From IMG/VR virus record IMGVR_UViG_3300049919_000116, positions 1 through 24,948 of that record: DNA of 24,948 bases. One strand, 5' to 3'. This document shows, piece by piece, positions 1 through 23,601 of the stretch (positions within the stretch are counted from its first letter, which is position 1; each line of letters opens with the position of its first letter). Position numbers and translations under genes: made by a program. The notes below the pieces were generated by a model, which was not told where the DNA came from, made no database searches, and saw only the letters and a program-made list of their open reading frames with translations. The DNA is from a virus.

Positions 1-2492
1 ATTGAAGAGGCTACGAGTGCAGCGGTGATATCTTGCCCGGTGAGGGTGAAGTTGATTTCACTACTATCAGTAACGGTTACAGCAGCGTGGCTAGCTGTTT
101 CGATAGCATCAAGGTCTACTGCCTGCGTTACCGTTATGTGACCGAGCTTTGTTTTTTCAGCAGCTGTAGCAAACTTGTTAGTCGTTCCAACAGTTATGTC
201 ATCGGTGTCGTCTACCGATTTCATAAAAGCACCTGCTGCGGTGACATTAGTCGCATCAGTTACGTCGGCGAGAGCTTCGATACCATCGAGCTTTGTCTCG
301 TCAGCAATAAGAAACGATGCCGTGGTGGCAGCTAGCACTGCGCTGTACCCCTGTACCGTTGTTCCAATGGCGGCTGGCTGTAGTGAGCTATCAGCTAGAT
401 CGAGCGAAGCATTCACGCTGGCATCGAGCTTTGTCTCGTCAATACTACTTGCCACGAGTGCAGCTGTAATACTCGGTGCGCCATCGTTGTATGTGAAGTC
501 AATTTCTGCGCTATCAGTTAGGATAGTACCTACCGCGTCTTGTGCTAGTTCTGTTACGGTTGTGGTGGTTACGACTGTATCGCTGTTTGTAACTACCTTT
601 TGATACGCTACGGTAAGTTCTGAGCCAGAAGCAGGGGCAACTACGAAAGTAAATGTACCACTAGCAGGGGTTGTTTCTGTCCAGTCGCTTCCTGTGCCTT
701 GTATCATCAATTGACCGTTAAGCCAGACCTGAAGTGTTCCAGTGGCGTAGGCTGCTTGCGAGACTGTGAAGACAGCATTTGAGCCGTTGATAGTTCCTGA
801 GATTGCGCCGTATGTATCACTCGTACCACCTGACTGGTCGATGTATATGTCGTTAAAGTTAGTGACTGTTCCGCCAGTGGCTAGGTCGGCGATGGCTTGG
901 GCTGTGACGTACTTTAGATTATCTGTGTCAGAAGCGTCTGCAATAAGTATTTTGTCGGCAGCAGCAGCAGTTACTAGAGTTTTGTTGGTGATAGCTGTCT
1001 TATCGACAGTAAGGGTAGTTGCTCCTGTTACTTCGCCTGTGTGAGTGGCGTTAGTGGTTACATCGCCGACATAAAGCACGTTACCGTCAGATACAGCTGC
1101 ATCAAGTTGTGCCTTAGTGAACGAACCCAGAGCTGTTGCATTGCTATCCTGTGAAGCTGTAATAGCCCCTGTAAGAGCAGCACGTTGCAAGGTGGCTCCT
1201 GCGTCATTGTAAACAATAGAAGTCGCTACCATCGCTCCTGTGGCGTCTTGTGCGGCCTCAGTGAAGTCAGTGATGTTGGCAGCGGTATGTGTATGTCCAG
1301 GCTGTGAAGCGGTGTCTGCCAGGTCAAGTGAAGCGTTGGTGCTTGCGTCTAGTTTTGTTTCGTCAATACTACCCGCGATGATAGAAGCGGTGATGTTTTG
1401 TCCAGCTAGGGTGAGGTCAATCTCGGCACTATCAGTTACGGTAACAGCGGCGTGTAGGGCTGCTTTCTCCGCGTCAGTTACATAGTTATCGTCAACACCT
1501 AGTGATGGTGCTTTCCCGTTGAGCTGTGTTTGGATTGCACTAGTAACACCGTCAACATAGTTGATTTCTGTGACACTAGCGGTTACGTCTGAAATATCTG
1601 CGAGGGTGAGTGTCTCGACTGATACGATAGGATTAGCTGGGTCGGTAGCGTCTACGTCGATGTTGTTGCCCGCTACGATGGTGTTTACCGTTCCTGAGCC
1701 ACCACCTGAGATAGTTACAACGGTAGCGTCATTGCCTGCGTCATCGGTTACGTTTACATTTGCTCCGACAAAGTTAAGGTTAGTACGTTGGGTGAGGGGT
1801 GTGCCTTCGTTTTCGATGGTATGGCCTCCACCGGTGCCTGCTGAACCAGCTTCAAAACGACTGAGGGTACTATTCCAAACAATAGTCTGCCCATTAGTAA
1901 TGCCCTCGATGTTTACATCATTTAAGTAGCGCAGGAGTTTTACCCCAGCATTGCCAATAGTTTTAGGTGAACGGGCTAGCGCCGCAATCTCTTCCCAGTC
2001 GTCTAAGCCTTTAATAGCTGACTTATCAAGGCGTTCATCATCCTGTAGTAGTTCCAAACCGTCACGAATGGCCTCATTGTTGATGGTCAATTCAGTGGGT
2101 AGTGTATTAAAACTAGCTTTAATGTCCACTATATCACGCTCCAATCCACTCAAGTCAGTCTTGGTAGGTATTTTCCGTTCAAGGCGTTTAAGCTCGTTAG
2201 AAAGTTTCGATTCTACCGCTGCGACGGCCTGTTCGGTCTCGTAGGTAAGGCGAGTGATGATCTGCTCAAGGCTGCGCTCTTTCTCGTTTAAGACGGCGAT
2301 AACACGGGTTATTTCTCTAGCTGTCTCTCCTTTAGTATTCTCCAATTCCTTAGTCTGTCGCTGTTTTTCCGTCGTAATGATACCCAGAATAGCCTCACTA
2401 AGCTTAATGAGGTCATCGGGGGTTGCATAATCCTCGTTTATCATCTCGAAGAGTGCATTCAGCTTCTCAAGTTTTTTTTCTTCGGGAGACAT
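1..2492 (-). CDS. Tail-fibre-like virion protein (C-terminus outside window)
   Basis: An open frame of 830 codons starts at an ATG (2490-2492) and runs off the left edge with no stop. The N-terminal 130 or so residues are charged and look coiled-coil-like. After residue 200 the sequence becomes Gly/Thr/Asn/Val-rich and beta-like. A module beginning TDSAEI and ending SLDLAD occurs at bases 1314-1436 and 390-518, and partly at 1-71. PGHTHTAANITDF between modules is a motif common in phage fibres. These features fit a trimeric fibre that binds the host surface; the family assignment rests on composition and motifs only. It is the last visible gene of the minus-strand virion block and has its own promoter-like box just upstream. 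No classical SD precedes it. Confidence 0.75.
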   Translation of the reverse strand, partial: MSPEEKKLEKLNALFEMINEDYATPDDLIKLSEAILGIITTEKQRQTKELENTKGETAREITRVIAVLNEKERSLEQIITRLTYETEQAVAAVESKLSNELKRLERKIPTKTDLSGLERDIVDIKASFNTLPTELTINNEAIRDGLELLQDDERLDKSAIKGLDDWEEIAALARSPKTIGNAGVKLLRYLNDVNIEGITNGQTIVWNSTLSRFEAGSAGTGGGHTIENEGTPLTQRTNLNFVGANVNVTDDAGNDATVVTISGGGSGTVNTIVAGNNIDVDATDPANPIVSVETLTLADISDVTASVTEINYVDGVTSAIQTQLNGKAPSLGVDDNYVTDAEKAALHAAVTVTDSAEIDLTLAGQNITASIIAGSIDETKLDASTNASLDLADTASQPGHTHTAANITDFTEAAQDATGAMVATSIVYNDAGATLQRAALTGAITASQDSNATALGSFTKAQLDAAVSDGNVLYVGDVTTNATHTGEVTGATTLTVDKTAITNKTLVTAAAADKILIADASDTDNLKYVTAQAIADLATGGTVTNFNDIYIDQSGGTSDTYGAISGTINGSNAVFTVSQAAYATGTLQVWLNGQLMIQGTGSDWTETTPASGTFTFVVAPASGSELTVAYQKVVTNSDTVVTTTTVTELAQDAVGTILTDSAEIDFTYNDGAPSITAALVASSIDETKLDASVNASLDLADSSLQPAAIGTTVQGYSAVLAATTASFLIADETKLDGIEALADVTDATNVTAAGAFMKSVDDTDDITVGTTNKFATAAEKTKLGHITVTQAVDLDAIETASHAAVTVTDSSEINFTLTGQDITAALVASS

Positions 2493-2506
2493 TGTAGATT
2501 TACTTA

Positions 2507-2518
2507 ATTATAACACGC
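2507..2518 (-). promoter_or_regulatory. Extended -10 promoter upstream of fibre gene
   Basis: On the minus strand this reads GCGTGTTATAAT: a perfect -10 box with the TGN extension. It ends 14 bases before the ATG of the fibre gene. Eleven of the 12 bases match the boxes at 6348-6359 and 12707-12718. No convincing -35 box is visible, as expected for extended -10 promoters. Confidence 0.55.
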
Positions 2519-2569
2519 GGGGATAACTTTGATTGACGGGATGCGTGTTTGGGGGTATGGTTGGCGGAT

Positions 2570-2677
2570 ATGGGATACGTTATATTTTTCATCTGCGCTG
2601 TATGGCTCGCCATTATTTTTCCTTGGTTATGGATTATATACCTAGGAGTTATCGGCATAGCTTTATTGGCTCGTTAA
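2570..2677 (+). CDS. Possible 35-residue membrane protein
   Basis: This short plus-strand frame encodes an almost uniformly hydrophobic, Trp-rich peptide (MGYVIFFICAVWLAIIFPWL and onward, ending LLAR). It could span the membrane once, with a positive C-terminus. It lies antisense to the surrounding virion genes and overlaps the last 15 bases of the next minus-strand gene. A possible promoter precedes it: TTGACG at 2534-2539, a 17-base spacer, then TATGGT at 2557-2562, eight bases before the ATG. A minus-strand alternative in the same stretch (about 57 codons) is hydrophilic and looks less natural. Holin-like or lysis-related roles are possible but not shown. Confidence 0.35.
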   Translation: MGYVIFFICAVWLAIIFPWLWIIYLGVIGIALLAR

Positions 2678-4759
2678 ACCTAGGAACGCTTCAACTGCTT
2701 GTTGGCGTGCTTCGGGTGTAATACCTGCGGCACCTTTTGCAAAGTCTCCAGCAGTATCTATAGCTGCTGATATAAGCCCCCCTTGGCGCATACGATTCAT
2801 AAAGCCGACACTTTGATCAATACCTTGGGCTACCCCACCAGCAACACGACCCTGGATACTTCCTTTTTGAACGGTTTCATAAATATCATCAAGGAGGTCA
2901 GCAAACCGCACTTGCTTCATTACGCTATTACTGTAAGTGTTTCCGTATTTTCGAGATACGTTTTCGAGATTTTGTAATGCAGACATCGGTTTTGCTGTGG
3001 CTCCACCTAACAAGCGAGTCATAGCCTCTCCAGCTTTCAGGTCTGTTATATTTCCAGAACCAAGATAATCTTTACCAATTAAACGGCGCATTTCATCAAG
3101 CGCTTCAATTGTTTCTTTATATTGTATGTTGGCTTTATTGTAATCAGGAAATGAAGTGTCAAGAACATCGTCGATATTTGTTCTTAGACTTTTTAGCAAT
3201 CGTTCAGCGTCACCAACCAGACCTTCTGCATTTTTGCCATAGGTCACTTGGTTATCAATAAAACGCTTTGCACGGTGTAATGCAAGTCCGTCCATTTTGG
3301 CACCAGCTAAGTCTGGGTCCACTCTCTTTAATACTGTTTTTAGTGTGCGTTGTACAGTGTCCAGTCCTTCAAAAGACGAACCTTCAAAGGCCTGTGCAAT
3401 TTCCTCTTTAGTAGACGACAGTCGAAGCGCATCTATATCTACTCCGTCGCGCTCTAGCTGATTAAAGAAATCGTCAGTTGCTGCACCAGCATTGACAGGC
3501 TTACCCGCCAATTGCCCTCGTGCTATATCATCAATTTGTCCGCCAGCGGTTTTGTTCAACTTTTCTACATCTTTTGCGCGTTGCATGAAAGCCTTACCGA
3601 CAATCTCTTGTTGTCGTTGGTTTGGTAGACCTGTGCTGGCTGTTTCCTTGGCAATTGCTACCATTTCTTTCGCAGCTTTCACATCATCTGGTGAAAACGA
3701 TTGCATGATTGCAACGTCGGTATCTTGCAAACCTTGTTTTAGTAAAGTTTGGGCTTTTTTATCTGCCACCACTTTACCGTTTTCAACTTTAAACCCCGCA
3801 GTAGCTCTATCTTTAAGTTGTGTCGTCGGTTTGACTGTCGGGGCTACAGGAGTAACGTCATCTATGCTATTAGCCGTTTTTAATGTAACTTTAGAGAGAG
3901 CATCGTCGACATTGTCGCTGGTAGATAACATCTCTTTTAACTCATTAGCACGGTTGGATTTTGCTTGAAAAGCGCCACCAGCGCCACCCACTACTCCGCC
4001 GACAGCGCCTCCGAGGGCACTACCAACAGCGCCTTGTTTAGCGACTTCAAAGGCAGTACCGAGCACACCTTTATTCTGCTCAATACCTGTAGCAAGTCCT
4101 GATACTCCACCAAATACAGCTCCAGAAGCAGTGCCAGCTTTAAACCCAGTTGCGGCTCCTTGTAGTACACCACGACCAACACCTGTAGCTGTGGTTAGAG
4201 CTGGAGCTGTCACTTTAGAAAGTACGCCTGTTGTGGCACCAGTTCCACCAAATTGACCGGCACTTGCAATTGTGCCCGCTGTGCGGATTGCAGAGCCTAT
4301 AACCTGACGATTAGTAACACCTAGGTCACGACGTTGTACTGACCCCTCTGTATACGCCTTGAAGTCAACGCCCAAGTCAGCAAGCGCCTTCTCTAATTGT
4401 TGTGTATCTCTACCTTCTGCTTTGTTTTTCTTTATTTGGTCAATGAGCCTGTTTTGAGTTTCGGTATTCTGTTTGAGCTGCTCATTAAACATACGCTCCT
4501 CACGTGGAGCGTTAATAGCTGCCGCTGCACCACGAGCTAGTGCGTCAACACCAGTGAAGCGTGAAATGGCACCAAGTACACCTTTAGTCTCAGGAACTTT
4601 TTGTGACTCAACTTGTTCTGTATATAGCTGCTGTTGCACTTGTGGTATGGCCGTCTCTAGTTTACCGAGATACGACTCAAATCCAGTGTCACCCATGACT
4701 GCTCGTTTTTGTGCGAGTTCACGTGCAATTCTATCTTTTTCTTGTTCTGAAAGTGCCAT
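2663..4759 (-). CDS. Large virion-associated protein with Gly/Ala-rich segment
   Basis: A 698-residue protein. Residues 1-150 are helical and charged. Residues 152-264 form a long Gly/Ala/Val/Thr-rich hydrophobic stretch, including a run of Gly and Val near 247-263, that could insert into membranes. The rest is helical and charged. No peptidoglycan-hydrolase motif was seen. It sits between the fibre gene and another large helical protein, where short-tailed phages often encode internal virion or DNA-ejection proteins, so an ejection role is a reasonable inference. Its ATG follows the upstream gene's TAA by one base (TAATATG), which suggests coupled translation; no SD is present. Confidence 0.6.
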   Translation of the reverse strand: MALSEQEKDRIARELAQKRAVMGDTGFESYLGKLETAIPQVQQQLYTEQVESQKVPETKGVLGAISRFTGVDALARGAAAAINAPREERMFNEQLKQNTETQNRLIDQIKKNKAEGRDTQQLEKALADLGVDFKAYTEGSVQRRDLGVTNRQVIGSAIRTAGTIASAGQFGGTGATTGVLSKVTAPALTTATGVGRGVLQGAATGFKAGTASGAVFGGVSGLATGIEQNKGVLGTAFEVAKQGAVGSALGGAVGGVVGGAGGAFQAKSNRANELKEMLSTSDNVDDALSKVTLKTANSIDDVTPVAPTVKPTTQLKDRATAGFKVENGKVVADKKAQTLLKQGLQDTDVAIMQSFSPDDVKAAKEMVAIAKETASTGLPNQRQQEIVGKAFMQRAKDVEKLNKTAGGQIDDIARGQLAGKPVNAGAATDDFFNQLERDGVDIDALRLSSTKEEIAQAFEGSSFEGLDTVQRTLKTVLKRVDPDLAGAKMDGLALHRAKRFIDNQVTYGKNAEGLVGDAERLLKSLRTNIDDVLDTSFPDYNKANIQYKETIEALDEMRRLIGKDYLGSGNITDLKAGEAMTRLLGGATAKPMSALQNLENVSRKYGNTYSNSVMKQVRFADLLDDIYETVQKGSIQGRVAGGVAQGIDQSVGFMNRMRQGGLISAAIDTAGDFAKGAAGITPEARQQAVEAFLGLTSQ

Positions 4760-4760
4760 A

Positions 4761-6338
4761 TTATTGTGTTGTAGTTGACTGCCCCATCTGCATTGACCTG
4801 TTTAGAATATCTTGCAGTTCATCTGGTGTAGCTCCTGATAATGTTTCAGCAATACCGAAGTCTACTTGACTTAGCGGTGCGGCTCCTTCGTATGCGGTCA
4901 GATAATTAGCACCATTTGAAATACCGGCTGTGTTGTTTACTCGCTTCACGTACTCATTCTTGACGTTATAATATTGTTTGTTTTTAGCTTCAAAAGATGC
5001 ACGAGCTGCTCGTATAAAGTCTTGCTTAACATCTTCAGGTAAGAATCCACCAGTGCGGACTGCGCCATTAAACCGTGCATATGCACCTTGGAATATGGTT
5101 CCTGTTTTTGCTGCATTTTCAAACTCTTGTTCCCGTACTACAGACGTAGGGTCAACAGCTTTCATGAAGTCATATACAAGTTGCATATCCTGGATACCTT
5201 CAATGCCGTTTGCTAGTGTATCCTCAAGGACTATATAACGCTGTAAACCTTCGTTGTATGATTTAACAATTGGCTGTGCTTCAAAGTCTTTATTGAGGTC
5301 GTTAGCAACTTTAGCCTGCTCTGGTGAAATAACACCATTAGCTGCGTCTTGTTCAGCTTGTGCGGCAGCTTGCGTAGTTAGTCCGTATTCAAGTTCATTA
5401 AGAGCAGCGCTCGCACTACTCGCACGGATATTGGCTCGCTGTGCTTCACGATCAAGTGCGCCGATGTAGCTTCCACCTAAGGCGAGAGCCTCTTCACGAG
5501 TCTTAACTTTAAGCATACGTTCTACTACACCAGTAGGCGCACCGTCAGCACTTGCCTGAATACCTAGTTCATAAATAGATTGAGCATTTGTTCGTTCTTC
5601 TTCAATCTTTCTGTCACGATTACCAAGCAATGTCTCAAACTCACGCTGTTCAGCGGTTGTGAAAAGGTCTTTAGCTTCGGTATAAGCAAATTTTAGTGTT
5701 TCATTGTAGATCTGTTGCTGCTCAAGTTTTGCAGATACAGCCCGATCAGCGATTTCTTTAGCACTATCATAGCGCCCTTGTACAGCCATTTGAATAACAG
5801 ATAGGTCAGCTTGTTTGGCCAGACTCTCACGTTCTAGGTTGCCAATTTCAGCAGCAGCTCCGCCTTCTAGTCCACCGCCTACTTTCTGGATACGTTCAGT
5901 GGCACGTCGGAGTGCTAACTGTTCCTTTCGTATTTTATCGTTAATGTCGTTAAGTTCAGGGGTAATGGCGTTTACACCGCCTGGAGCTGCGTATTCTTGC
6001 GCTGTAAGGCCCGTAAGACCTCGTGAGGATTGTAGTGACTTTAGGTATTCATCTAGTGCACTAACTTTTGTTGTAGAAGCAGCTTCTTTAGCGGCAGTTT
6101 GTTGTTGCGTGAAGGCATCTTCTGCTTGTACCTCTAGGTCAGCTGCAAGAGCTGTTCCTTGTACTGGAGTAGGGGGTGTAGGTACGTTAATGACTGGCGT
6201 GGTAGTCATTGACTCAGGTGTAATAACCCCGGTAGCAGTTTTGCTAGGAGTTGTGGGAGTTCCGGTAGAATGTGTTGGTGCACTTGCTATTTTAGGAGCA
6301 TTTGCAATGCTTAAATCTTTAAGAGCCTGAGTTGCCAT
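4761..6338 (-). CDS. Large helical virion-associated protein
   Basis: A 525-residue protein. Residues 1-65 are rich in Pro and Thr and look unstructured. The remainder is rich in Ala, Glu and Gln with heptad-like stretches (about 130-240 and 290-340), suggesting long helices. No enzyme motif is visible. By position and composition it is probably an internal virion or ejection protein paired with the 698-residue protein downstream, which starts one base after this gene's stop. The start at 6338 is supported by an extended -10 box nine bases upstream and by the AT-ATG-GC context shared with neighbouring genes. The exact function is unknown. Confidence 0.6.
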   Translation of the reverse strand: MATQALKDLSIANAPKIASAPTHSTGTPTTPSKTATGVITPESMTTTPVINVPTPPTPVQGTALAADLEVQAEDAFTQQQTAAKEAASTTKVSALDEYLKSLQSSRGLTGLTAQEYAAPGGVNAITPELNDINDKIRKEQLALRRATERIQKVGGGLEGGAAAEIGNLERESLAKQADLSVIQMAVQGRYDSAKEIADRAVSAKLEQQQIYNETLKFAYTEAKDLFTTAEQREFETLLGNRDRKIEEERTNAQSIYELGIQASADGAPTGVVERMLKVKTREEALALGGSYIGALDREAQRANIRASSASAALNELEYGLTTQAAAQAEQDAANGVISPEQAKVANDLNKDFEAQPIVKSYNEGLQRYIVLEDTLANGIEGIQDMQLVYDFMKAVDPTSVVREQEFENAAKTGTIFQGAYARFNGAVRTGGFLPEDVKQDFIRAARASFEAKNKQYYNVKNEYVKRVNNTAGISNGANYLTAYEGAAPLSQVDFGIAETLSGATPDELQDILNRSMQMGQSTTTQ

Positions 6339-9459: not shown

Positions 9460-9888
9460 TTAAGCTACAGCCGCATTTTGGGCCGCGATTCCTTCTGCAT
9501 TAAGAGTGAGGGCAAGCGTACCATCTGTTGGTGAAAGTGTTGTGCCGATAGAACCACTAAATACAATTGGCGATGTAGCTGCAACACCTGTATTTACTAT
9601 AATCACAAATTGGTTAGTAACAGTTGTGATACTTGCAGTGCTCGGGTCTGTAAAGTCAATCTCAACACGATTGTTTGTCGTATCCATTGTCACAGTGAGT
9701 CCAGAGATAGTAATTGTTGGTGCACCTGACGCCTCACTGGATGAAATATCTGACCAGTAGCTATTATCTGGATTTGGTGTATAAGCTGTACTCATGTAGC
9801 GAAGTTCTGGAGTACCAGATGGGGCACTTGCTACGTTTAATAAGGATTTAAGCCCTATCTCAAGTCCTTTTAAGTGGAAGTTTGCCAT
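9460..9888 (-). CDS. Small beta-rich phage structural protein
   Basis: A 142-residue protein. The start (LKGLEIGLKSLLN, then LRYMSTAYTPNPDNSYWSDI) resembles a widespread phage family of unknown structural role with a helix followed by a beta-domain. The second half is Thr/Ile/Val-rich with Gly turns. The neighbours are the adaptor-like protein upstream and a beta-sandwich protein downstream, so a virion role is likely. Its ATG is one base after the upstream TAA (TAATATGGC). The recognition is by general pattern, so the family assignment is uncertain. Confidence 0.55.
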   Translation of the reverse strand: MANFHLKGLEIGLKSLLNVASAPSGTPELRYMSTAYTPNPDNSYWSDISSSEASGAPTITISGLTVTMDTTNNRVEIDFTDPSTASITTVTNQFVIIVNTGVAATSPIVFSGSIGTTLSPTDGTLALTLNAEGIAAQNAAVA

Positions 9889-9889
9889 A

Positions 9890-10627
9890 TTATCGTGTTG
9901 ATTCTCTGTTAATGTTTAACTGCATACGTTCATCTTTAGCTCGGCGATCAAAGTATTCCTTTATTTCACGTTCTAGCTTCATCATTTCACCTTCAATGCG
10001 TGGGTATGAAGTGAGAGTATTACGTCTTGCGTAATCATACGCTGGCCTAAGGTAGAAATACTTATGGTGTATCCCTGGGAAGCCTGGAGTTTTTGTGGTA
10101 TCAGTTGAAGTAAAATATTCTCCTTCTCGATTGATAGATACCTTGAGGCCGTCTGTTACGTTTGCGATTGGTAGTACATCGAGGCGAATAGAGTTAGCGG
10201 TCTTGTCGTACTTTGATGGTGTGCCAGTTTGTCCTGAGCCATTTGTAAATGAGCTTGCTTCGGTTTCACTGTCAGCGTCATAATTCTCAAGTAGTTTGTA
10301 GCTGTCACCATCCTTGTAGTACACCTTGTAGATGTCGAGCACCATGTTTCCGTTCTCATCGGTGATGAACGTATAGTCACGCTGTCCGGCTACGATGTCG
10401 GTATACATTTCTGGGTAGTCATCGTGGTTAGTGTCATCAAACTTCCATTTACCTGACACCTGGATAGCAATTGCTGTGTAGTCGTCAATGGCAAGGTTAG
10501 CGTCAGCAGCGAACTCTTTTAATAAGTTAGTATTCCCTGAGACAGTTCCACGAGTTGCACCAATTTCACGCTCGTACATTTGAACGATTCCTTTGAGCGT
10601 TGTTGTGTTTGAGAATTGAATTGACAT
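9890..10627 (-). CDS. Putative head-tail adaptor protein
   Basis: A 245-residue protein. The N-terminal half is helical (about residues 10-65: YEREIGATRG, then DYTAIAIQVSGKWKFDD). The middle is beta-rich (GQRDYTFITDENGNMVLDIYKVYY, about 80-105). The end contains HHKYFYLRPAYDYARR (about 187-202) and long charged helices. This resembles connector/adaptor proteins that sit under the portal of podovirus-like phages. The position two genes after the capsid protein fits. A G-U-containing hairpin lies in its leader (10647-10669). It begins a run of six tightly packed genes ending at 6361. A different minor structural role remains possible. Confidence 0.55.
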   Translation of the reverse strand: MSIQFSNTTTLKGIVQMYEREIGATRGTVSGNTNLLKEFAADANLAIDDYTAIAIQVSGKWKFDDTNHDDYPEMYTDIVAGQRDYTFITDENGNMVLDIYKVYYKDGDSYKLLENYDADSETEASSFTNGSGQTGTPSKYDKTANSIRLDVLPIANVTDGLKVSINREGEYFTSTDTTKTPGFPGIHHKYFYLRPAYDYARRNTLTSYPRIEGEMMKLEREIKEYFDRRAKDERMQLNINRESTR

Positions 10628-10646
10628 TTTGTTTTAATTACTGTAT

Positions 10647-10669
10647 TCACCCACCCAGCGAGTGAGTGA
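10647..10669 (-). other. Leader RNA hairpin upstream of adaptor gene
   Basis: In minus-strand RNA, TCACTCACTC pairs with GGGTGGGTGA over ten base pairs (two of them G-U) with a three-base loop. The plus-strand version does not pair fully, which suits a function in the minus-strand transcript. The downstream ATG is 19 bases beyond the hairpin. It may shield or present the ribosome entry site; that is inference. Confidence 0.45.
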
Positions 10670-10681
10670 GTGAGACAATCG

Positions 10682-11149
10682 TTAAGAGGTTGCGAATGGT
10701 GTTGCTACTACACCTGTACCATGTACTGTTCCTTCTACGAGCCATCGTGTTGATGATAGGCAAGTAAATGTAAGGCGAGTACCTTGTACTGCACCTGTAG
10801 TTGTACCGTTCATAGATACAGCGATGTGTGTTGAACCGTTGCCTACCCAAGCTGCTACTGCGTTTGCAGTATCAGTGTCGATGTTCACAAGTCCACCAAT
10901 CAATAGTTCTGTACCAGCTGCGGTGATAACCTTAGCTGCGTTTGAAGTAATTGTTGTTGAAACAATAAAGTCAAAAGTCGTACCCGGTTTTGCTGTTGGA
11001 AGTGTATAAACAATTCCGGCAGCGCGGTCAAAGAGGCAGGTGCTTCCACTTTCTAACTCATTAAGAGTACGTGTAGCGCCTTGTCCTGAAATGACGTTCT
11101 TCTTTGCGCGTACCTTGTCTAAAACAAGGTCAGTTCCTCGTAATTGCAT
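10682..11149 (-). CDS. Decoration-like capsid protein
   Basis: A 155-residue, Thr/Gly/Ala/Val-rich, beta-type protein. It lacks helical heptads and any enzyme motif. It is encoded directly downstream of the major capsid protein, where many phages place capsid-stabilising decoration proteins. The internal pattern (STCLFDRAAGIVYTLP, then LLIGGLVNID, then WVGNGSTHIAVSMNG, then STRWLVEGTVHGTG) matches small beta-barrel proteins annotated as head-associated in other phages. The assignment depends on position and composition. A structured region lies between it and the capsid gene. Confidence 0.5.
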   Translation of the reverse strand: MQLRGTDLVLDKVRAKKNVISGQGATRTLNELESGSTCLFDRAAGIVYTLPTAKPGTTFDFIVSTTITSNAAKVITAAGTELLIGGLVNIDTDTANAVAAWVGNGSTHIAVSMNGTTTGAVQGTRLTFTCLSSTRWLVEGTVHGTGVVATPFATS

Positions 11150-11216
11150 ATGTTTGTTTTGTTACTTAGTGAGGGTATTCCGAGAGCAAGCCTGGTGGGA
11201 AACTTGCTACCCAGAA

Positions 11217-11237
11217 GACCCCCACTAAGTGGGAGTC
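11217..11237 (-). terminator. Strong hairpin after capsid gene (attenuator/terminator candidate)
   Basis: Nine base pairs (11217-11225 with 11229-11237) close a three-base loop, ten bases past the capsid stop codon. In minus-strand RNA one pair is U-G. The 3' side continues UUCUGGG, so the U-tract is poor. The hairpin may cause partial termination or protect the 3' end of capsid mRNA. A second hairpin (11185-11190 with 11203-11208) follows immediately. Confidence 0.5.
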
Positions 11238-11246
11238 TAATAAGGG

Positions 11247-12104
11247 TTAGGCGAGGGTGATGTCGATAGTAAGGTCGAGACGTGGTGTCCAAGCCTTGAA
11301 ACCGATGTAGCCGTAAGTTACGACTTCCATACCAGTTTTGCCTGATACCATCTTTTCCTCTGTCTTCACTCCGCCAGGCATTGCCATAGTTGACACGCCC
11401 TTAACACCAGCGACACGGTGTCCAGCGTTTGTCCAAGTTGCTGTACCTACAGTTGCGTCGGTGAAAGTACCTGAACGTACAACATAGATATCAACACCCA
11501 TCCACTGTGACACACGGCCGTTTGAGAGCACTGCGTCAGCGTTGTTGAAGCCGTTAGTTGCTCCAGCAGCGATAATACCAACGAGGTCAGTGTTTTCTAC
11601 AACAACGTACATGTTACCGAAGTATCCTTCTGAGTAACCTGAGAGCTTTGCGACGATTTCAGCAAAGATAGTGTTTACGTTAGCTGCTGTAGTGAAACCG
11701 CCAGCTGGTGTAGTGTAAGCACCTGTTCCGGCTTCAGTAAGTGAGTTGAGTACAAACTCGTCAATCTTCTTAGCTACGTTGAAAGCCATTTGCTCTGTAC
11801 GCGCTGAGAAGAGGTCGAAGTTAGTCAACATCTCCTGGAAATCCATGATGTGTTCACTAACGATGAACTCGTCAGTTACATCAAGAGCTTCGTCAGTTGT
11901 AGTGAAGTCTGCTGGTGTGTAAGTTCCTGCAAGCGCCTGTACAACAACTGTTGGAGTTGAACTGTACGGTGATTGAATACGCTTGTTGTTTGATCGGTCT
12001 ACTGAAGTAATTGCTTCAGCTACGAGAGCGCCACGGAGAGCGGTATCAAGGGTAGCTGAACGGTATTTATCACGATATACACGTGATGCGATAGTATTGG
12101 CCAT
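11247..12104 (-). CDS. Major capsid protein (HK97-fold type)
   Basis: A 285-residue protein of the size typical of small HK97-fold capsid proteins. The N-arm region (residues 1-60) is followed by a beta-stretch, a helix-rich part (MDFQEMLTNFDLFSARTEQM, then NVAKKIDEFVLNSL, about 93-120, a likely spine helix) and a Gly-rich mid-domain containing MYVVVEN. The C-terminus (EVVTYGYIGFKAWTPRLDLTIDITL) resembles the closing strand of such capsid proteins. A scaffold-like gene lies directly upstream and a decoration-like gene directly downstream, the canonical order. The ATG at 12104 has the ATATGGC context seen repeatedly here. A perfect 7-base-pair hairpin precedes it. Confidence 0.85.
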   Translation of the reverse strand: MANTIASRVYRDKYRSATLDTALRGALVAEAITSVDRSNNKRIQSPYSSTPTVVVQALAGTYTPADFTTTDEALDVTDEFIVSEHIMDFQEMLTNFDLFSARTEQMAFNVAKKIDEFVLNSLTEAGTGAYTTPAGGFTTAANVNTIFAEIVAKLSGYSEGYFGNMYVVVENTDLVGIIAAGATNGFNNADAVLSNGRVSQWMGVDIYVVRSGTFTDATVGTATWTNAGHRVAGVKGVSTMAMPGGVKTEEKMVSGKTGMEVVTYGYIGFKAWTPRLDLTIDITLA

Positions 12105-17147: not shown

Positions 17148-17735
17148 TTACATTGTACCACACCGAGCCAGGGTATCGTCAAGGGATGTGTATAACTTAT
17201 CGAGGTTATCCTTCTCACACTCGATTGTGTAGTCAGCCTGTAGTGATGCTTGCTCGGTTTCGGACTGGTGATTGTCGGTATTTACAAGGTCAGCCCGGTT
17301 GAGGCGGATAGTTATCCCTCCAAGTGCTTTGACAGCTTCATACTCGTTCAGGAAGCGAACGTCATCGGTTACGATGCTGGTAACAATCTTGCCCTCTTGT
17401 ATATCCACTACCTTAGACACTGCAAGGATCCACTTGTTAGTCCAATAGTTGGGATTCTCTTTGCGGCGTAGCTCGGTGCCGTAGTTCTGCATGAGCGCAC
17501 GCATGAGGGGTGGTTTCTTAATAAAGAGTTCCTCTACGCTAGTTAAGTTGTCATTATGAAATGCTACATTCTCTGCATGAGCAATCGCCCCTAATAAATC
17601 CGGAAAGTTGAGTTTAATTTCCTCGATAAGTGCATCCTTGAAATTGATGTGGTGGACTCCTTCCAGTTTAGTCTTCAAGTAATTACAAGCGGTGGTTTTA
17701 CCTGAGCCTTTAAGGCCGATAAGTGCGTAGATCAT
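17148..17735 (-). CDS. Deoxynucleoside monophosphate kinase-like protein
   Basis: A 195-residue P-loop kinase. GLKGSGKTT (residues 7-15) binds ATP. MQNYGTELRRKENPNYWTNK (82-101) and the TDDVRFLNEYEA motif (123-134) are typical of T4 gp1-like dNMP kinases, which phosphorylate dNMPs to supply phage DNA synthesis. The HQSETEQ stretch (156-162) also fits. The start is placed at 17735. The frame is open to 17840, but that extension lies in repeat DNA and has a poor, Cys/Pro-rich composition, and an extended -10 box ends six bases before the chosen ATG. It sits between the putative origin and the terminase genes. Confidence 0.85.
   Translation of the reverse strand: MIYALIGLKGSGKTTACNYLKTKLEGVHHINFKDALIEEIKLNFPDLLGAIAHAENVAFHNDNLTSVEELFIKKPPLMRALMQNYGTELRRKENPNYWTNKWILAVSKVVDIQEGKIVTSIVTDDVRFLNEYEAVKALGGITIRLNRADLVNTDNHQSETEQASLQADYTIECEKDNLDKLYTSLDDTLARCGTM
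17152..17160 (-). promoter_or_regulatory. Extended -10 box upstream of terminase genes
   Basis: On the minus strand TGGTACAAT overlaps the last codons of the kinase gene, about 147 bases before the small-terminase ATG. It would give a long untranslated leader with a weak hairpin near the start codon. Being inside a gene lowers confidence. Confidence 0.35.
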
Positions 17736-17750: not shown

Positions 17751-17867
17751 CACCGAGGGAGCCCCGGGGTGGGGTTGTCCACACCCAAAAAGACACCACA
17801 AAACTTGACTTAAATCAAATATTGTGAAAAATCTGAACACCTACCCCCCTTTTTTAGCAAACACTTA

Positions 17868-17926
17868 CAGGAGTATATAAATACAGTAAATATATATCTA
17901 ATACTTATATCATTAAAAATAGGTAT
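17868..17926. other. AT-rich DNA-unwinding stretch of putative replication origin
   Basis: A roughly 60-base run of almost pure A/T (TATATAAATACAGTAAATAT and similar) lies between the first and second copies of the repeat. A C-run followed by a T-run occurs at 17844-17856, and a one-mismatch DnaA-box-like sequence at 17775-17783. AT-rich DNA next to iterons, beside a primase-helicase gene, is the standard layout of an initiator-type origin. An operator-only role is the main alternative. Confidence 0.55.
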
Positions 17927-18042
17927 AGGTGTTCAGGAATAGTAATAGTAACCATATCTATAGCCATATTTTAGCCTGAACACCTTTGTTTAGAGGTGTT
18001 CAGAATGAACACCTCAGGTGTTCAGAATCGCTATTTGATAAT

Positions 18043-18075
18043 AAAAAAGTCACCCCGTAAAGGGTAACTTTTTTT
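18043..18075 (-). terminator. Rho-independent terminator of the primase-helicase mRNA
   Basis: The stem GTTACCC with GGGTGAC (18049-18055 with 18062-18068 on the plus strand) is complete on the minus strand with one G-U pair. A six-base loop separates the arms, and A- and T-tracts flank both sides. It ends transcription arriving from 20282 and would also work partly in the other direction. It lies inside the repeat array. Confidence 0.8.
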
Positions 18076-18122
18076 GGCTGAACACCTCCCTGAACACCTC
18101 TAGGGGTAAAAGGTGTTCAGGA

Positions 18123-20282
18123 TTAGAAATTATTTATTTCATGTTTTGACACCCTGAATGGGGTGGCAGCGCCACGGTCAAATAGCTCGCCGGGCACCCA
18201 CACATTCCCCCAGTCAAAGTGCTTTTTCTCCAAGCCGATCTTCTTTAGGATTCGTCCTACACGCATCTCATCAGCCTTACCGATAGACACAGTGCTCTCA
18301 TCGAGCGTCTCACCGTAGCGGTCATTTTTATATGCCTGGCAATACGCCTGGCGGGTAGTCTTGCCCCTGTTCTGCTCATCAGCAGAGAGATTGTAGTACC
18401 AGGTCTTGAAGAGATCCTCATCCTGTTCAGTAGCGGTGATAGACCGTTGGTGCCTCATCAGCTCGTAATCGTCAATCTTGCGGAAGTCCTCCCCGTTGCG
18501 CACTCGAACCGCAGCCTCAGCAAATAGTTGGTCACGGTTAGCTCGGAGCCAGTGGATATCCGCCTGGCGCTTAGGTGGGTAGCACTTCATGTCATCTGGC
18601 ACCTCCACCGCCCACCAACGTCGGCCTCCCGTACTATCCTTCAGAATGTCATCATTGTTAGCTGTTACGGCGAAGACACACCTGCGAGGGAAGTCACGAG
18701 CATGTCGCTCATACGGCACACGGAAGGTATCGGTCTGGCGTGAGACAATAGACTTCAGTGACTCACTGTCCGCCTTACTGAAAATAGCCGCCTCAGCGAA
18801 CTCAACAATAAGTTTTCCCTGCATGTCCTGTTGCATTTCACGCACCTTGAGGTCAGTGAACTCGATATGCTTATCCTCTCCGGCAATAATCAGGAAGACA
18901 CTACTCTTACCAATGTTCTGCCCACCCTGGACAATGAGCGCACTGTCGAACTTGCAGCCTGGGTTTAGAATACGAGACACTAGCCCCATGAACCACTTAG
19001 ACCCTATGTCCTTGTAATATTGCTCCTCTGGTACGAAGAACACACTATTGAGCCAGGTATTGAGCCTCCCCACTCCATCCCATTTGAGACTATTCACGTA
19101 GTCCTGAGCGGAGTCAAACACGTTGCGGTACTGCACATAGGTGAGCAGGTCGCCCACCCGCCTGGCTGTCACCTTGGCTAGGAATGGGAACTTCTCCACC
19201 AGCCAGGAGTACAACTGCCCGTCACTCCCATCATCACGGAGTATCCAGGTGCCACCGATACATAAGTATGAGCGGTTCATAAAAGCATCATACCGGGCGA
19301 GTTTGTAGTGGTTAAAGATACGGATGATATTTTCGTCGTTGGCTAAGTACTCAATCACATAGTCATCACCCTTCTTCTTCTTAATATACATCAGTGTTTC
19401 CCAATCAATGTCCTCCATTCCATCACCACTTACTGTCGGTGCCTCCTTAGGCAACTCACCATACTTATCAATCAACCACTTGTACGCCTGCTTGGTAGTG
19501 ATACCCAGCACACCTGCCACATATGTGGTGGCATTACCTTTGTACGGATACTCATCACTGGTGGTCGCAATGTAGTTCTCTGTACCTGATCGCCCGATGA
19601 ATGTGCCGGTTGGTTGTCCGTTCCAGACCATACGACCTAAAGAGTCGAACGTCACTGTGTCACCTTTCTCTGCCCATGCGTCGATTGCTGCCTGGCGTAC
19701 ATCATACTCAGCATTGGCAGACGGCGCGTGCTCGACTACCTCCTTATACACCGGCGGCATTGCAGCAAGTAACTCATCCCAGGTGTAACGGGTGTCTTCG
19801 TTGTCCTCGATGACGGAGACCATGAACGGGTGCTCGGGTTGCTTCTTGTGCTCATGACCAGGGAGACGCATCAAGCGTAACGCATCCATCGCTCCACTAT
19901 CACTGTTGTACCGCTCGTGGATGAATCGGTGAACACCCTCCACTTGTTTAATCATGTCCGCTCGGTTGTCATCAGTTACGATAATCGGCTCGTTAAGTAA
20001 CCAGTACAAGTGCCAGCCGTTGCCACTCTCTACAATAAAGGTCGGGGTAGGTAAGCCATCAAGGTCGAGCATGAACTGTTTGAAGTCTGGCTTAGCAGAC
20101 CCCGTTGGCTGCCCTTCCTTCGGCTTGAAGTCCCAGTCAGCGAACACAGCGTTCACGTGAGTCAGGTTAGTGTCCTTCTTACGTGCCCCGGTGTATCCAT
20201 TAGGGGTAAAGAACACCCCCTCGTTTGGCTCTTCATAGTTGAGCTTCTCGACTTTGCTATTGGTGAAATAGTGGCTGAACAT
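18123..20282 (-). CDS. Primase-polymerase / VirE-type helicase fusion
   Basis: A 719-residue replication protein. The N-terminal part has archaeo-eukaryotic-primase features: FADWDFK with metal-binding D49 and D51, then SGNGWHLYW (86-94) with H91, and RLMRLPGHEHKK (136-147). The C-terminal part matches the VirE/SF3-like helicase family: NSLKWDGVGRLNTWL (397-411), Walker A GGQNIGKSS (453-461), Walker B LIVEFAE (491-497), a sensor-like FAVTANND (537-544) and arginine residues in GGRRWW (552-557). It would prime and unwind DNA, probably at the adjacent repeat array. The linker (about 190-395) is unassigned. It is read divergently from the early genes and ends at the terminator. Confidence 0.85.
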   Translation of the reverse strand: MFSHYFTNSKVEKLNYEEPNEGVFFTPNGYTGARKKDTNLTHVNAVFADWDFKPKEGQPTGSAKPDFKQFMLDLDGLPTPTFIVESGNGWHLYWLLNEPIIVTDDNRADMIKQVEGVHRFIHERYNSDSGAMDALRLMRLPGHEHKKQPEHPFMVSVIEDNEDTRYTWDELLAAMPPVYKEVVEHAPSANAEYDVRQAAIDAWAEKGDTVTFDSLGRMVWNGQPTGTFIGRSGTENYIATTSDEYPYKGNATTYVAGVLGITTKQAYKWLIDKYGELPKEAPTVSGDGMEDIDWETLMYIKKKKGDDYVIEYLANDENIIRIFNHYKLARYDAFMNRSYLCIGGTWILRDDGSDGQLYSWLVEKFPFLAKVTARRVGDLLTYVQYRNVFDSAQDYVNSLKWDGVGRLNTWLNSVFFVPEEQYYKDIGSKWFMGLVSRILNPGCKFDSALIVQGGQNIGKSSVFLIIAGEDKHIEFTDLKVREMQQDMQGKLIVEFAEAAIFSKADSESLKSIVSRQTDTFRVPYERHARDFPRRCVFAVTANNDDILKDSTGGRRWWAVEVPDDMKCYPPKRQADIHWLRANRDQLFAEAAVRVRNGEDFRKIDDYELMRHQRSITATEQDEDLFKTWYYNLSADEQNRGKTTRQAYCQAYKNDRYGETLDESTVSIGKADEMRVGRILKKIGLEKKHFDWGNVWVPGELFDRGAATPFRVSKHEINNF

Positions 20283-20330: not shown

Positions 20331-20347
20331 ATTATACACGAGTGTAT
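20331..20347. promoter_or_regulatory. Palindromic operator overlapping primase -10 box
   Basis: The minus strand has TATAAT at 20331-20336, 48 bases before the primase ATG. A perfect 14-base palindrome ATACACGAGTGTAT (20334-20347) overlaps it. A dimeric repressor bound here would block primase transcription. The HTH protein encoded on the other side is a natural candidate, but that is inference. Confidence 0.5.
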
Positions 20348-20367
20348 TCGTTGTGTGTTTTTGCAAT

Positions 20368-20376
20368 TGTGGATAA
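20368..20376. promoter_or_regulatory. Perfect DnaA-box match
   Basis: TGTGGATAA is the exact complement of the DnaA consensus TTATCCACA. It lies in the divergent control region between primase and early genes. One such nonamer is weak evidence alone; a second exact match is at 23714-23722. Confidence 0.4.
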
Positions 20377-20399
20377 CCATGCACGTTTCGTTTTTAGTG

Positions 20400-20408
20400 T
20401 GGTAATAT
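20400..20408 (+). promoter_or_regulatory. Extended -10 promoter of the early genes
   Basis: TGGTAATAT ends eight bases before the HTH-gene ATG. Transcription would start at or beside the start codon. It faces away from the primase promoter, forming a divergent pair. Confidence 0.5.
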
Positions 20409-20416
20409 ATGTGTAT

Positions 20417-20593
20417 ATGAAAGCACATATAAAAGACAAGCAGACCGAACTTATAAGAGCATTAGGCGTACAAGACTATTCATACCAGGAAATCGCAAGC
20501 ATTTTTGGTGTGTCTAAGAGTTACGTTTATAAAATTATCAGTACCACATCAAAGGACTATATTTGTCCTTGGGTTAAACGCACTGACGTATGA
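20417..20593 (+). CDS. Small HTH DNA-binding protein
   Basis: A 58-residue protein with a clear helix-turn-helix at about residues 22-42 (SYQEIASIFGVSKSYVYKII), resembling the recognition part of resolvase/sigma-like or Trp-repressor-like HTH domains. The rest is short and basic, ending PWVKRTDV. It is the first gene of the plus-strand block and lies beside the divergent promoter region, so it may regulate the switch between the two strands. The start is set by the extended -10 box eight bases upstream; a longer frame from 20342 is unlikely. Its stop overlaps the next start (ATGA). Confidence 0.65.
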   Translation: MKAHIKDKQTELIRALGVQDYSYQEIASIFGVSKSYVYKIISTTSKDYICPWVKRTDV

Positions 20594-21659: not shown

Positions 21660-22310
21660 ATGGGACTAATGCAAACAGAAGACAAAGGACGACTATTATA
21701 TGTACTAGCTGACGGTCTCCTACGGGAGCAAGTCGAGGAGACTAGTGAAGGCGCTAAGTTGCGTATCATCAAGAACGATGACGGCACCGAGAAGATGCGT
21801 AAGTGGGAGTATACCTACCCAGGTATCAGCGGCTTCATCACTAGTGTCACCACCCGTGATGGCGACTACGGGACAAGCATCCTCATTTCTATCAAGGATA
21901 GTAATGACGAACAGTTCACATTAGCACTTCAAGCGAAGAGTAAGTATGGTGAGGACTTCATCCATAAGCTGCCTAACATCTCGCTGGCTAAGGAGGTAAG
22001 CATCAAGCCGTATAACTTCACTGACGGCGATCGTAAGGTGGCTGGTGTCACTATCACCCAAGATGGGGAGAAGGTAGGGAACGCTTTCAACTGGAAAGAA
22101 GACGATGAGTGGAAGTCACTTGATGGCTACCCACAAGTTGACGAAAAGAAAACACCAAAAAACAGCGACCAGTGGATGATCTTCTTCACCCAGCGTCGTG
22201 AGTGGGTGCTCGATTACCTGACTGAGAAGGGTCTTATCACCGAAGCGACCGGCACTGATGCCGACATCATTGAAGAAGTTACCACCAATGGAGACGAAAA
22301 GCCTTTCTAA
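21660..22310 (+). CDS. SSB-like single-strand DNA-binding protein
   Basis: A 216-residue protein. A beta-rich core (about residues 45-140) with alternating strands (ISGFITSVTTRDGDYGTSIL and ISIKDSNDEQFTLALQ) suggests an OB-like fold. The end (DADIIEEVTTNGDEKPF) is acidic and finishes in a Pro-Phe, like the partner-binding tip of bacterial SSB (DDDIPF). The location between two nuclease genes also fits. The family itself was not recognised, so this is inference from pattern. The preceding 54-base gap holds GGTGGG (21613-21618) and AT-rich DNA. An ATG three codons in (21669) is an alternative start. Confidence 0.55.
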   Translation: MGLMQTEDKGRLLYVLADGLLREQVEETSEGAKLRIIKNDDGTEKMRKWEYTYPGISGFITSVTTRDGDYGTSILISIKDSNDEQFTLALQAKSKYGEDFIHKLPNISLAKEVSIKPYNFTDGDRKVAGVTITQDGEKVGNAFNWKEDDEWKSLDGYPQVDEKKTPKNSDQWMIFFTQRREWVLDYLTEKGLITEATGTDADIIEEVTTNGDEKPF

Positions 22311-22692
22311 TCGCATAACTGATTACGTCTTAGGGCGTAGTACAACCACCCTCACTGAGCTTGAGGGTGTTGTTGTGTCTGCTGGCTTCACGCTCGATGA
22401 GCTGTACGCAGCGCTCAACCAGGTGCACAAGAACAAAGCCATCCGCCGTACCGTGAGGCAAGGTGAGGTGGTGTACCTCAAGGCGCTGCCACCCAAGGAG
22501 CCAGGGAGCCACTTGTCGTGGACTCGCACGCACTACCCCCCGATGGACAGCACCAACAATGGGAGCGGCTTCGATATCGACTACAGCTACCTATTCCTAT
22601 CACCTGATGCGCTCCTGGAGTACAAGGCAGCTGCCCGGAATATCCCAAAGCACATGATACAATCATCACATGGCCATCACACCAGAAGGTAA
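22288..22692 (+). CDS. Winged-helix-like protein, unknown function
   Basis: A 134-residue protein. Residues 7-67 look like a winged helix-turn-helix: ITDYVLGR, a helix (TLTELEGVVVSAGFTLDELY), another helix (ALNQVHKNKAI) and a hairpin (RRTVRQGEVVYLKAL). The second half is aromatic and polar, without a motif. It overlaps the preceding gene by 23 bases and the nuclease downstream by 23 bases. The ATG at 22288 was chosen over one ten codons upstream. A regulatory or DNA-binding accessory role is probable. Confidence 0.55.
   Translation: METKSLSNRITDYVLGRSTTTLTELEGVVVSAGFTLDELYAALNQVHKNKAIRRTVRQGEVVYLKALPPKEPGSHLSWTRTHYPPMDSTNNGSGFDIDYSYLFLSPDALLEYKAAARNIPKHMIQSSHGHHTRR
22655..22663 (+). promoter_or_regulatory. 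Extended -10 box giving leaderless VRR-NUC mRNA
   Basis: TGATACAAT, inside the end of the winged-helix gene, ends six bases before the VRR-NUC ATG. It could start a leaderless transcript of that gene. Confidence 0.45.
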
Positions 22693-23246: not shown

Positions 23247-23399
23247 ATGGAACTAAACATTAAACTCAAAATAGATGTACCTAATATAGATGTACCAGTA
23301 GAGATGACACCGGCACAACTAATGAAGTTTCATGATGACCTAACTCAATTCATTAACGATAATTATGCCGCACTCACAAATGAAAACACATCAGACTAA
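23247..23399 (+). CDS. Small protein, unknown
   Basis: A 50-residue protein (MELNIKLKIDVPNIDVPVEM, then TPAQLMKFHDDLTQFINDNY and a short polar end). A beta-strand pair and an amphipathic helix are visible. The ATG follows the previous stop by one base in the TAATATGG context seen across the phage. The end overlaps the next gene by about 20 bases. Function is unknown. Confidence 0.55.
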   Translation: MELNIKLKIDVPNIDVPVEMTPAQLMKFHDDLTQFINDNYAALTNENTSD

Positions 23400-23601
23400 G
23401 GCCGACCTCGATGTGCTCAAGTTCATCAAGAAATACTTCAAGGAGTACGGTTGTGCTCCGACCCACGTAGCCATCGCCAACGAGTTTGGCCTTACCCGCC
23501 AATGGGCGACCTACCGCATCGACCGCCTGAAGAAGCTTGGCAAGCTGTTGCCCGCCAAACGCTTTGGATTATATGTAATACACTTCGAAGACCCACGCTA
23601 G
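23380..23601 (+). CDS. LexA-type winged-helix protein
   Basis: A 73-residue protein. The pattern DVLKFIKKYFKEYGCAPTHV (11-30), AIANEFGLTRQWATYRIDRL (31-50) and the KKLGKLLPAK wing matches the LexA N-terminal DNA-binding fold, without the protease half. It may be a transcription repressor of this block. The ATG at 23380 was chosen; one five codons upstream also lies in frame. It is followed by a 19-base gap with a weak promoter-like stretch. Confidence 0.65.
   Translation: MKTHQTKADLDVLKFIKKYFKEYGCAPTHVAIANEFGLTRQWATYRIDRLKKLGKLLPAKRFGLYVIHFEDPR

Follow-up and report, generated by a model that had tools for sequence, protein, structure and literature searches.

The window, by which we mean the whole 24,948-bp viral record analysed here, has the gene content of a tailed phage and may be an incomplete fragment. 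An array of short repeats lies between the stop codon of a primase-helicase gene (18123, - strand) and the ATG of a dNMP kinase gene (17735, - strand). The kinase gene is followed, on the same strand, by those for TerS, TerL, portal, head and other proteins. In the + strand region to the right of the primase-helicase gene, consecutive genes overlap briefly (22258-22310 and 22670-22692). We rejected the possibility that the element is a PICI, a satellite borrowing the structural genes of a helper phage, because portal, major head protein and terminase are all encoded in the window. The features discussed below are as follows.

17148-17735, - strand: dNMP kinase, the first gene past the array, then TerS, TerL and portal
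17833-18120, no strand assigned: proposed origin, nine-unit iteron array of AGGTGTTCAG in both orientations
17833-17842, - strand: iteron 1, exact, the sole unit beyond the AT-rich run
17874-17933, no strand assigned: AT-rich run (83% AT), proposed unwinding element
17927-17936, + strand: iteron 2, exact
17976-17985, - strand: iteron 3, exact
17994-18003, + strand: iteron 4, exact
18005-18014, - strand: iteron 5, one mismatch, reads AGGTGTTCAT
18016-18025, + strand: iteron 6, pairs with iteron 5 as a 19-bp palindrome (18006-18024)
18043-18074, - strand: stem-loop with U tract, putative terminator of the primase-helicase transcript (RNA fold)
18078-18087, - strand: iteron 7, exact
18090-18099, - strand: iteron 8, exact
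18111-18120, + strand: iteron 9, exact, 2 bp from the primase-helicase stop codon
18123-20282, - strand: primase-helicase, 719 aa, proposed initiator, with an N-terminal primase domain and a VapE-like SF3 helicase
18123-18485, - strand: C-terminal domain of the primase-helicase, spanning about residues 600-719 and proposed to bind the iterons
20342-20593: 83-aa HTH protein (HTH83)
23365-23601: LexA-like protein

The initial annotation had described nine 10-base units in both orientations directly downstream of the primase-helicase gene, and we located all of them: eight exact copies of AGGTGTTCAG and one copy with a single mismatch. The claim that no exact copy exists elsewhere holds for the whole record. 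When one mismatch is allowed, the record contains a single extra copy, at 5556 on the - strand. Both of the inverted arrangements that had been pointed out are real: the perfect 19-bp palindrome has the form TGAACACCT-C-AGGTGTTCA, and a second inverted pair of units spans 17976-18003. The two spacings could, as suggested in the initial annotation, differ in how they bind a dimer and a monomer. We estimated the chance expectation from 200 windows simulated with an order-1 Markov model, counting in each how often a single 10-mer occurred within 300 bp. The maximum was 2 copies in 198 windows and 3 in the other 2, compared with 8 observed. An Rfam scan gave no match.

The AT-rich run comprises the highest-AT 60 bp of the whole window, and the least stable duplex of the window (z about +4.6) has this run as its core. 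As had been proposed, iterons flank it on both sides; the arrangement is asymmetric rather than balanced, with eight units on the primase side and one on the far side. Within the array, the segment 18036-18085 folded on the - strand gives -17 kcal/mol (z -4.2), and its strong stem is terminator-like for the primase transcript. The array could also be viewed as an operator through which HTH83 or the LexA-like protein controls the kinase-to-packaging/head operon. It does lie upstream of the operon whose first gene is dNMP kinase, genes for HTH proteins are close by, and there is a promoter-like match inside the AT-rich run (- strand, 17900-17872). However, promoter matches are not in excess (7, compared with 5.7 expected from shuffles), and no exact copies of the unit occur at the HTH genes or elsewhere in the record. 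In other replicons, moreover, arrays follow the helicase gene while the next gene is variable (VRR-NUC, recombinase, unknown). We therefore regard an operator as very unlikely to be the explanation of the array, though such a role could possibly coexist with origin function.

The neighbouring protein combines two halves. PF05272 (VapE-like) covers residues 397-601. The N-terminal half is matched by PHROGs primase families and contains, as read by eye, the AEP-like motifs DWD and SGNGWHLYW; a match to a PrimPol structure was not significant (E 0.4). Among proteins of solved structure the only significant relative is 7pds_A, named 'Similar to D. nodosus vapE' and matched over residues 379-592 with E 1e-32; we take it to be the Rep helicase of a SaPI. 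The C-termini of the window protein and twelve other VapE proteins, combined in a profile, match residues 281-451 of 7pds_A with an E value of 3e-14. As queries, the helicase half alone found no relative among viral contigs and the C-terminal 160 residues found no phage match. An AlphaFold model of the isolated C-terminal 150 residues, computed without an alignment, was poor (pLDDT 51) and lends no support to a winged-helix fold.

Phage P4 offers one precedent: its alpha protein is a primase-helicase that recognises its own iterons, and these (GGTGAACAG) have a core similar to that of the window. Unlike the window, P4 has an ori and a cis region that are separate. A further difference is that the primase domain of P4 alpha is of the Toprim type (PMC4234260). 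In SaPIs, the C-terminal domain of the Rep protein recognises an iteron origin located directly downstream of its own gene (PMC7581432). SaPI/PICI origins and the window share an array that directly follows the initiator helicase gene on its 3' side and multiple short iterons around an AT-rich run (PMC7581432, PMC6092414), as well as a VapE helicase homologous to 7pds_A, with the C-terminal region included in the homology. They differ in that the window belongs to a tailed phage that itself encodes portal, head and terminase proteins, that its primase is fused to the helicase, and that the two fuller iteron sets around the AT run of SaPI/PICI origins are replaced by the 8:1 arrangement. The Cch2 protein of SCCmec also binds repeats downstream of its own gene via its C-terminal domain (PMC7581432); unlike the window, its putative origin contains only three 5-nt iterons and the primase is encoded separately. 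The archaeal plasmid pRN1, encoding the primase-polymerase-helicase ORF904, has an essential origin region directly downstream of the primase-helicase gene, and this region also contains a putative terminator (PMC4234260). In both respects it resembles the window; unlike the window, it has a stem-loop and no iterons.

The initial annotation had suggested that the layout is uncommon. We surveyed the window and 25 other replicons, searching 700 bp 3' of the helicase gene in each. Setting aside L009, which has a D5-type helicase half, and L033, a DUF927 phage that entered the survey through the iteron pattern, left 23 other VapE replicons. Eleven of them had an array count clearly above every Markov control, which is at odds with a rare layout; the fraction is no population estimate, because the rows were hand-picked for diversity from ranked lists and only 30 Markov simulations were run per replicon. 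The 11 are phiPaco, Ollie, Staph690, JB1P3, APSE-1, MissE2, LPPA36, Microcystis, Komagataeibacter, Apilactobacillus and Arsenophonus, and each has an iteron word particular to it. Allowing up to one mismatch, for instance, the arrays of Ollie, APSE-1 and LPPA36 consist of nine copies of ACTGCAACA, nine of GTTGTTACA and eleven of CTGTCCCAC, respectively. The controls were exceeded also by the window (9), L009 (8) and L033 (12). Three replicons were not counted: V16 (8 versus a control of 6, yet its own upstream control reached 10), Javan630 (marginal margin over the control) and bIL312 (above the control only in the exact 8-mer test). As about half of the VapE replicons show no clear array, a visible iteron array is not required by VapE. 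The initial annotation had proposed looking for the same array beside primase genes in related phages; arrays recur 3' of VapE helicases, with words that differ by lineage. A scan of genome contigs gave 17 inverted pairs and no array, and a direct-repeat scan of IMG/VR was discarded, the hits being mostly same-strand repeats at multiples of 9 bases, which we read as collagen-like coding repeats.

The simplest case in the survey is the Microcystis plasmid p2-NIES88 (L184; 3,117 bp). It has two annotated genes and looks like a minimal VapE replicon: the VapE protein gene is followed by twelve copies of AAGGTAGGG, which an AT-rich run separates into two sets of six. With twelve units around an AT-rich run and only two genes, an origin role is hard to avoid for the class, and the plasmid is circumstantial support for autonomous replication by gene plus origin in this class. 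The same layout in small plasmids without an annotated terminase also speaks against the idea that the window array is a pac site read by the small terminase subunit. TerS is encoded about 0.8 kb from the array and TerL is close too, yet no array of this word was found in any of 20 contigs whose TerL is 56-82% identical to that of the window (a partial test, as a recognisable TerS is present only in L010 and L027). We give a pac site hardly any credence.

The part of the initiator that reads the iterons may be illuminated by L009, which resembles a natural swap. L009 is related to the window in primase residues 1-325 (64%) and VRR-NUC (65%), and it also has relatives of g22258, g21660 and HTH83 of the window. 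Its helicase half is D5_N/DUF5906, unlike the VapE half in the window, and the array directly 3' of the helicase consists of eight copies of another word, ATCTGTCCC. Judged from these sequences, the swap is consistent with iteron recognition by the helicase half, though the remaining genomes differ too. L009 also encodes a 711-aa terminase-like ORF (9707-11842), the middle part of which is intein-like.

The same iteron word, searched for as GGTGTTCA, is found beside helicases of other classes. Pattern scans located arrays in L030-L032 and L033 (DUF927 helicase with HTH_56), in L194 (VapE with Prim-Pol), in L193, L195 and L196 (D5 helicase, AlpA-bearing element) and in L199 and L202 (AAA_25 ATPase). 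The array lies about 100 bp or less from the stop codon in L033, L193 and L202, and lies about 0.8 kb downstream in L194 and about 1.5 kb downstream in L032. In the satellite-like, AlpA-bearing L193 (1696-1932), and also in L195 and L196, a TATGAACACC array is directly 3' of a D5-type helicase; in L202 (2142-2282) the GGTGTTCA array is directly 3' of an AAA_25 ATPase with an HTH-like C-terminus. In L191 (1177-1517), a contig without a helicase, nine copies of GGTGTTCA lie to both sides of a run very rich in AT, with terminase genes downstream. Pattern matches in L192, L197 and L198 were rejected, as they appear to be chance or coding. The reversed word, intended as a negative control, matched L200 and L201, whose arrays look like one region in two related contigs; the L201 array overlaps the 3' end of a VapE gene and continues past it. 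L201 also contains a 993-aa DNA polymerase ORF with an apparent intein-like insert (2358-5339). The recurrence of GGTGTTCA is only suggestive, because the loci were chosen by the word itself, and any excess was judged against the one reversed control word. That GGTGTTCA is an origin signal common to phages and satellites with four ATPase classes (VapE, DUF927, D5 and AAA_25) is, in our view, doubtful. If true, one initiator class would exchange origin-binding modules or origins with another, or else some common factor of wide distribution would read the word.

The recurrence also speaks for a variant of the origin reading in which the iterons bind a separate initiator, either a phage HTH protein or a host factor, and the primase-helicase is merely recruited: a shared outside factor would explain why GGTGTTCA adjoins four ATPase classes. 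The retention of a diverged HTH83 relative (34%) in L009 points the same way. Against it, binding by SaPI Rep and by Cch2 is reported to reside in the helicase's own C-terminal domain (PMC7581432), words vary among lineages with the same helicase family, as expected if initiator and iterons co-evolve, and the reversed control word also met an array where a VapE gene ends, in L201. We consider a separate initiator improbable, while noting that the identity of the binder is the least certain step in reading the array as an origin.

A change in strand skew at the site, which the initial annotation had named as a further mark of an origin, was seen in part. Cumulative GC skew shows no sharp peak or trough at the array; it decides little either way, as the genes switch direction close by. 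The skew at fourfold sites, calculated on the coding strand, does change at the array. It is -0.28 for the - strand genes to the left of the array, which are homogeneous (p 0.27), and -0.23 for the + strand genes to the right. The primase-helicase, the sole long gene directed towards the array, has a value of -0.01 and differs from the genes pointing away (Fisher p 0.0017). This fits the prediction for an origin at the array, resting on one gene, the primase-helicase, whose skew may simply reflect a different descent.

We conclude that the array is probably the replication origin of the phage, recognised by its own primase-helicase, and would put the probability at roughly 80%. The position of the array, the AT-rich run and the fact that the neighbouring protein is a homologue of SaPI Rep all support the initiator-type origin put forward in the initial annotation, as do the arrays that recur 3' of VapE helicases. 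We infer the following steps of binding, ring assembly, melting and initiation at the array. The C-terminal domain of the primase-helicase would recognise the nine iterons, and the protein would form helicase rings on the array. The helicase would then melt the adjacent AT-rich run (17874-17933) and load itself, and the N-terminal primase domain would prime synthesis.

The proposed origin in the window would work like, and be a new member of, the already known SaPI/PICI origin type. It would give a group of uncultivated phages an origin that is precisely placed and open to testing, and the swap in L009 offers a ready way to ask which half of the primase-helicase reads it. Our survey suggests that the iteron-origin layout, which has been described as unique to PICIs, is also present in VapE-encoding replicons of two other kinds, complete phages and small plasmids, and this wider distribution bears on the exchange of replication modules between satellites and phages.
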